From positions 1-64,000 of the forward strand of contig NZ_AZCZ01000005.1 of assembly GCF_001434055.1 (NCBI RefSeq): 64,000 bases of DNA, given 5' to 3'. Below, in pieces: positions 47,390 to 47,804 of this stretch (the stretch's first letter is position 1; each line of letters starts with the position of its first letter). This stretch comes from Levilactobacillus parabrevis ATCC 53295 (GTDB taxonomy: Bacteria > Bacillota > Bacilli > Lactobacillales > Lactobacillaceae). The translations under genes were made by a program, and so were the position numbers. The notes under the pieces are model-generated. The model had not been told where the DNA came from and made no database searches. It saw nothing but the letters and a program-made list of their open reading frames with translations.

Positions 47390-47419
47390 AAGGCTGCTGA
47401 AGATTTCGGTAGCCTTTTT
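47390..47419 (+). terminator. dnaJ terminator
   Basis: AAGGCTGCTGAA (47390-47401) pairs with TTCGGTAGCCTT (47405-47416) using wobble pairs, then TTTT. Confidence 0.85.
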
Positions 47420-47484
47420 ATTTATCATAAAATATAAGAATTTTTATAATTGCAAAAGAAACGCTTAAGCTTGAGTAAGGTTAA

Positions 47485-47513
47485 TTGCAATCCGGTTTTG
47501 GCAATGATACTCT
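47485..47513 (+). promoter_or_regulatory. dlt operon promoter
   Basis: TTGCAA (47485-47490), 17-base spacer, TACTCT (47508-47513). It gives a leader of about 135 bases before dltX. Confidence 0.5.
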
Positions 47514-47520
47514 CAAAACA

Positions 47521-47650
47521 TAGGGAGCGCGGCTTTGGCTGCGGAACTCCTCACCAATTCACTTGGATTCGTCGGGGAATATACGGGTGAATTGGCTGCG
47601 AACGGAAGCTGGTTTGGGGGACGAATCGACCAGCAAAACTTGGGGGTGAA
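47521..47650 (+). ncRNA. Structured dlt leader with possible pseudoknot
   Basis: Hairpin CCAATTCAC (47554-47562) with GTGAATTGG (47587-47595), perfect 9 bp. Its loop holds GATTCGTC (47566-47573), which is complementary to GACGAATC (47620-47627) just upstream of the dltX ribosome binding site. A third imperfect hairpin lies at 47522-47550. The nested loop pairing would make an H-type pseudoknot, which suggests control of dltX translation or transcription. Confidence 0.5.
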
Positions 47651-47654
47651 TTTC

Positions 47655-47804
47655 ATGAGAGCAAAGTGGCTGGCGTTATGGCATCAGCCGGTGGTGGCCT
47701 TCATTGGCTGGACCATGTTTTACTTTGTGATTTTGATGATTTTGGTTTATTTGTATGGTTACAGTGGTTTGAATAACTCGACGTTTATTTACAACGAGTT
47801 TTAG
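47655..47804 (+). CDS. dltX: DltX, small membrane protein of teichoic acid D-alanylation
   Basis: A 49-residue single-helix protein with the family ending LVYLYGY..NNSTFIYNEF; the C-terminal motif FIYNEF is the conserved part that acts with DltB and DltD in D-Ala transfer across the membrane. The helix is roughly residues 12-36. ATG at 47655 follows GGGGGTG; the open frame continues upstream to 47535 but that part is the structured leader, and DltX proteins are about 45-50 residues. First gene of dltXABCD. Confidence 0.95.
   Translation: MRAKWLALWHQPVVAFIGWTMFYFVILMILVYLYGYSGLNNSTFIYNEF

Follow-up and report, generated by a model that had tools for sequence, protein, structure and literature searches.

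The window, i.e. the whole 64-kb stretch of DNA that was analysed, carries dnaJ, dltX-dltA-dltB-dltC-dltD and lepA in this order in its list of open reading frames, with gene names assigned from the respective products. All features described below for the dltX region of the window are located on the + strand. The first gene of the dltX-A-B-C-D operon, dltX (47655..47804, ATG at 47655), was recognised from its open reading frame and its neighbours, and a homologue was present in all 35 Levilactobacillus genomes examined. The dnaJ transcript likely ends at a terminator-like hairpin followed by a T-run (47390..47416). The dltX promoter (47485..47513) is composed of TTGCAA (47485-47490), a 17-nt spacer and a TG preceding the -10 element TACTCT (47508-47513). 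A -35-like hexamer, the 17-nt spacer and the TG before the -10 element were found in 35/35 leaders, with the -35 hexamer being exactly TTGCAA in 33 of them. Based on promoter spacing and consensus match only, the 5' end of the dltX transcript is predicted at ~47519-47522, and the leader (~47519-47654) falls between this promoter pattern, common to the 35 leaders, and the start codon. It includes an extended Shine-Dalgarno sequence, GGGGGTGA (47642..47649), and GGGGGTG preceded dltX in 35/35 loci. Upstream of the promoter, a conserved TTAAGNTTGAG box (47465..47475; 35/35 genus leaders) constitutes a possible regulator site. In the form TTAAGNTT[AG][AG]G, it was positioned just 5' of the -35 hexamer in all 35 Levilactobacillus leaders, and a longer pattern combining box and promoter gave one exact match in the L. 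parabrevis genome, at the dltX locus, and one mismatched copy elsewhere. The box is perhaps bound by a response regulator. Compared by eye, it showed no clear fit to the ApsR/PsdR DNA-binding consensus AnnTTACnAnnnnGTnAG of Lacticaseibacillus paracasei (PMC10858260).

The dltX leader can form three successive hairpins, termed P1, P2 and P3. P1 (47524..47550) has a GGAG...CTCC base and an inner stem. P2 (47554..47595) has a long loop and is closed by a perfect 9-bp stem, in which CCAATTCAC (47554-47562) pairs with GTGAATTGG (47587-47595), and the 7-bp hairpin P3 (47608..47634) ends 7 nt before the Shine-Dalgarno sequence and 20 nt before the dltX ATG in the window. The P2 loop harbours the strand L2, GATTCGTC (47566..47573), which is complementary to the strand L3, GACGAATC (47620..47627), located 47 bases downstream in the P3 loop, and the two strands can form an 8-bp loop-loop (kissing) helix. 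L3 ends 14 bases before the Shine-Dalgarno sequence, and the P3 loop also carries a G-tract (47616..47620). The original prediction had described the perfect 9-bp hairpin and a complement of its loop 47 bases further on, near the dltX ribosome binding site, all of which was confirmed at these coordinates; P1 and the P3 hairpin around GACGAATC are features beyond it. As a separate observation, the P3 loop (47613-47626) resembles the Shine-Dalgarno region (47639-47652), as in leader L007 (CTTTGGGGGCGAAT vs CTTTGGGGGTGAAT), a likeness that might point to a mimic or decoy.

To a first approximation, the chance occurrence of such features was estimated from the single sequence. Among 20,000 dinucleotide-shuffled versions of the leader, a perfect 9-bp hairpin (loop 3-40) arose in 141 and a hairpin of ≥6 bp with a 7-base downstream complement of its loop in 201. 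This corresponds to a frequency of ~1%, with criteria less strict than the values of 9 and 8 seen in the leader. For positions 47500-47680, RNAfold yielded a z-score of -2.73, and an equally low value was obtained in 1/200 shuffles. Judged by the sequences at hand, conservation across species is stronger evidence than shuffles of this kind.

The genus was assigned by sequence: in five of the genomes, the leader together with the initial 60 bases of dltX matches records of L. humaensis, L. yonginensis, L. tangyuanensis, L. senmaizukei and L. andaensis without a difference. For the comparative test, one dltX leader was taken from each of the 35 Levilactobacillus genomes, and the set was split by ATTCGTCG into 27 canonical and 8 variant leaders. 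A covariance model (R1) was constructed from 10 leaders with hand-drawn hairpins, and the 27 canonical leaders were realigned to R1, giving an alignment (A5) that favours P1, P2 and P3 because it was fitted to the R1 hairpins. In A5, the full architecture had standard pairs in 96.2% of 914 cells, and 22 of the 34 pairs were changed on both sides. Cells changed on both sides numbered 188, as opposed to 58.1 after shuffling, and values as high as those observed were reached by 0/500 shuffles for four of five pairing measures; the fifth, further pair types (52), was unexceptional, being reached by 107/500. When the partners were slid by 1-3 columns as a control, only 30-45% of the cells were paired. 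Pairing was seen in 98.1% and 95.6% of the cells of the two P1 helices, 91.1% of those of P2 and, among the 27 canonical leaders, 99.5% of those of P3. In the same 27 leaders, both-side changes affected 6/9 pairs of P1, 10/10 pairs of P2 and 5/7 pairs of P3. RNAalifold recovered P1, P2 and P3 from A5 with no structure supplied, although the model behind this alignment contains them, and the secondary structure was kept with compensatory changes in each hairpin. An R1 alignment of the 27 canonical and 7/8 variant leaders, with L037 missed, still had 94.2% of 828 cells paired. These compensatory changes, present in P1, P2 and P3 alike, lend strong support to the proposal that a structured cis element precedes dltX. 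The proposal had been made contingent on a transcription start no further downstream than 47595 and on conservation of the pairings; the promoter pattern, kept in 35/35 leaders, predicts a start near 47519-47522, and most members of the genus retain the pairings.

The kissing helix is absent from R1 and was counted separately. Its L2 strand contains ATTCGTCG in 27/35 leaders, a constancy that holds in part by definition because this motif defined the canonical class. A downstream complement in the form of GGGG..CGAAT accompanied ATTCGTCG in 27/27 leaders, and either partner was found in 0/8 variants. Among the 27 canonical leaders, L2 and L3 were paired in 99.1% of the cells, as against 18-60% when slid. 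Six of the eight pairs were invariant, one was either U-A or U-G, and one, the first, covaried (G-C in 19, C-G in 4, U-A in 2 and unpaired in 2 leaders, the broken pairs being those of L015 and L023). Shuffles reached the observed number of pairs with a double change in 378/500 cases and that of further pair types in 115/500. On a tree of dnaJ and dltX-dltA, the variable pair requires four changes, two of them compensatory (L016/L017/L019/L036 and L021/L022) and two disruptive (L015 and L023). The kissing helix is accordingly supported by comparative sequence less strongly than the three hairpins. Of the possible pseudoknot in the original prediction, the long-range pairing is kept in 27/35 leaders, and its geometry was revised from a hairpin with a paired tail to a kissing loop; covariation of this pairing amounts to the one covarying pair, with its two compensatory and two disruptive events.

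Single leaders were folded with RNAfold, either alone or with 57 additional coding bases, and a hairpin was scored if at least half of it was formed. In the minimum-free-energy (MFE) structures of the canonical leaders, P1 appeared in 22/27 cases, whereas P2 appeared in 18 when the leader was folded alone and in 19 when coding bases were added. P3 was formed by 14/27 leaders alone and by only 7/27 with coding sequence. This result counts against P3 even though RNAfold cannot represent the kissing helix that would keep this hairpin folded. The low count arises in part because the 3' strand of P3 (47628-47634) can pair with dltX codons: it paired over ≥5 bases with early codons in 15/27 local MFE structures, and this pairing was absent or weak in 12/27 leaders and is hence not a conserved feature. 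The resulting fold excludes P3 and encloses the Shine-Dalgarno sequence and the start codon, which makes it a candidate closed state in these models. The predicted accessibility of the Shine-Dalgarno sequence ranged from 0.13 to 0.62 among the canonical leaders. Reserving the kissing bases shifted it by ≤0.08 in 25/27 leaders (exceptions: L011 and L013), and therefore no switch or direction is visible in the predictions. RNAalifold also drew a 4-bp mini hairpin (47646-47656) between GTGA of the Shine-Dalgarno sequence and TCAT over the start codon, all four pairs of which are possible in 26/27 canonical leaders.

To determine its distribution, the element was searched for with covariance models. 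When R1 was run on the 35 genus genomes (E up to 10), the dltX leader was the best match in 27/27 genomes with canonical leaders (E ≤ 3.4e-16) and was matched in the variant genomes G404, G405, G279 and G402 (E 4.5e-6 to 0.019). It was not listed at this threshold for the variant genomes G111, G373, G397 and G401, and R2 matched it in G111 and G373. R1 matches away from dltX started at E 0.0166, a value belonging to a weak and probably fortuitous match (G401:C60:2422-2526) in an incomplete genome of the variant group. A family search with R2 matched 25/25 Levilactobacillus genomes (E ≤ 2.1e-5) and, weakly, 7/372 genomes from other genera (E 0.0024 to 0.033), which is about chance level given that E-values were computed for one genome; in three of these seven (G196, G230, G369), the match is on a different contig from dltX. 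An order search with R2 (E 0.01) matched 7/395 genomes, all Levilactobacillus, with family and order searches both using stricter filters that lose weak matches. A loose pattern scan of contigs returned at least 116 stretches, mostly chance matches. Among 115 of these listed stretches, R2 identified the element in six, all of them Levilactobacillus and including L156 (L. paucivorans), and gave three further matches at E 0.1 to 0.82. A match in L. wangkuiensis (L128) was dismissed as chance because it is situated inside a 1183-aa ORF resembling mfd. On visual inspection, no such element was apparent in five leaders of other genera (L027-L031). Strong covariance matches were found only before dltX in Levilactobacillus.

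At the gathering cut-offs, a search of the whole window against Rfam 15 returned only a tRNA (2502-2589). For 47440-47680, two matches were obtained at E up to 10, both far under the cut-offs, and 20 of the 35 genus loci gave no match at gathering. Among the literature matches listed, titles and abstract openings did not name an RNA element before dltX, with subscription papers and supplements outside the scope, and the main text of two RNA-motif surveys (PMC11109978, PMC6429828) contains no mention of dlt, lactobacilli, alanylation, teichoic acid or brevis. As far as sequence comparison can tell, the dltX leader is a new RNA family, namely a conserved structured leader that is orphan in function. 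It resembles orphan cis-regulatory motifs and riboswitch candidates in its promoter-to-start fold, covarying stems, conserved loops and single gene context, but differs from them in that it was found in one genus and one operon and had no Rfam 15 match.

Individual known systems share parts of this architecture. The guanidine-II riboswitch (mini-ykkC) consists of two tandem hairpins before a start codon, whose loops can kiss and both contain ACGR. The dltX leader likewise has tandem hairpins with kissing-capable loops before a start codon, but its loops are long, it has no Rfam match, and ACGR was present in only 4/27 L2 regions and 14/27 L3 regions. In IncI-alpha/IncB plasmids, the repZ pseudoknot couples replication control to a leader peptide and an antisense RNA. 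Common to both leaders is a hairpin loop that can pair with bases further downstream, close to the Shine-Dalgarno sequence; unlike repZ with its coupled leader peptide, however, the dltX leader shows no conserved in-frame leader ORF. The control of D-alanylation outside L. paracasei is mainly described as transcriptional and exerted by two-component systems. For teichoic-acid D-alanylation in L. paracasei, PMC10858260 describes the same, with dlt under Bce-type two-component control and its promoter induced by antimicrobial peptides. The operon is the same, but regulation there involves DNA binding by ApsR/PsdR, whereas the element in the dltX leader is an RNA positioned 3' of the promoter. 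A genus-wide structured leader would add RNA-level control to a system that influences how sensitive cells are to cationic peptides.

Taken together, the dltX leader very probably folds into an RNA structure that is preserved in shape across Levilactobacillus; it very likely acts in cis and may control the dlt operon. With respect to transcription attenuation, no terminator-like site was found in the window leader (+ strand, 47417 to 47683). An in-frame leader ORF of 89 aa, reaching from 47535 through dltX, was rejected because its length is not kept: the frame open with dltX spans 51 to 123 aa among the 35 genomes (dltX query, 49), and the lengths of 24 leaders (136-142) do not differ in steps of three; the listing of other reading frames covered the window. 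With no terminator-like site in the window leader and no in-frame extension of dltX retained among the genomes, the most natural reading is regulation at the level of translation or mRNA stability. The best explanation, whose prospects we regard as evenly balanced, is that the leader of the dltXABCD mRNA is a conserved cis-acting three-hairpin kissing RNA that acts at the initiation of dltX translation. P2 and P3 would be joined by the 8-bp loop-loop helix, and P3 lies just 5' of the Shine-Dalgarno sequence, close to where the 5' boundary of a ribosome at initiation would fall. P3 appears marginal on its own and would be held by kissing with P2; once P3 opened, its 3' strand could pair with early dltX codons in some species and enclose the Shine-Dalgarno sequence and the start. 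A signal (ligand, ion or protein) acting at the conserved loop bases might stabilise or open the kissing contact and so turn ribosome loading up or down, with the kissed state probably being the open state of the translational regulator.

The main rival to a translational regulator is a passive stabiliser or insulator, in which P1 blocks decay from the 5' end and the fold keeps upstream RNA off the Shine-Dalgarno sequence without any sensing. It is consistent with the position of P1, which starts a few nucleotides past the predicted transcript start, with the stability of the P2 segment alone (-11.8 to -22.9 kcal/mol), and with the RNAalifold result, in which the 4-bp start-codon mini hairpin was the sole structure at the ribosome binding site and no conserved pairing linked the Shine-Dalgarno sequence to the leader. 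Such a function requires no conserved loop letters, however, and GGGG and CGAAT are constant in 27 leaders despite freely changing stems; we consider it rather unlikely. The conservation of loop letters while the stems drift points to specific recognition. Recognition could also occur in trans if a protein or small RNA bound the G-rich, Shine-Dalgarno-like P3 loop and the fold merely served as a scaffold, an alternative that agrees with the presence of the loop GGGG in canonical and variant leaders alike but seems to us unlikely all the same.

Two further alternatives concern the L2 and L3 strands themselves. In a mutually exclusive switch, the P2 loop would pair with either the P3 loop or the Shine-Dalgarno region (ATTCGTC with GGTGAAT). 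An 8-bp pairing of the latter kind, including G-U, is predicted in 18/27 leaders, but it shrinks to 5 bp in six and to 4 bp in three others (L003, L005, L035), and ATTCGTC is absent from the 8 variant leaders. As a simple duplex, moreover, L2 with the Shine-Dalgarno region reaches only -1.6 to -4.1 kcal/mol, compared with -7.5 to -9.7 kcal/mol for L2 with L3, making this switch highly improbable. Since GATTCGTC and GACGAATC form a spaced inverted repeat with an invariant core, they might instead act in DNA as two half-sites of a regulator, or be an accident of common descent. The flanking stems change in sequence and nevertheless keep their pairing, which is not required for DNA binding, and this last reading is hardly credible.

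The 8/35 variant leaders lack both kissing partners, yet 35/35 leaders keep the G-tract that the model leaves unpaired in the P3 loop, as GGGG in 27/27 canonical and CGGGG in 8/8 variant ones; CGAAT, by contrast, occurs in 27/27 canonical and 0/8 variant leaders. In addition to CGGGG, the variants retain the promoter, GGGGGTG and P3. They fall on one side of a single branch (SH-aLRT 100) in a quick, unrooted tree without bootstrap, which is compatible with either gain or loss of kissing. RNAfold of the P3 segment returned a local hairpin after the G-tract in L026, L039, L040 and L041 and a shorter one in L037; for L024, L025 and L038, a local P3 hairpin was not in the RNAfold output and was drawn by eye only, with G-U pairs. 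The eight kissing-less leaders provide a natural comparison, in which the loop-loop helix and the local hairpin are possible stand-ins for each other. More speculatively, and with a low likelihood of being right in full, the translational regulator could be a genus-specific sensor RNA, in which an envelope-related signal (for instance, a divalent cation or a small molecule linked to teichoic-acid D-alanylation) directly sets P2-P3 kissing and thereby provides the dlt operon with RNA-level feedback on surface charge; the local hairpin of the variants would then replace the kissing helix, with the G-tract kept as the recognition element. By eye, the Shine-Dalgarno sequence itself is possibly located in a hairpin loop in two of the variants, as GAGTT-GGGGGTGA-AACTC in L040 (1517-1663) and as AATTT-GGGGGTGA-AAATT in L041 (1454-1593).
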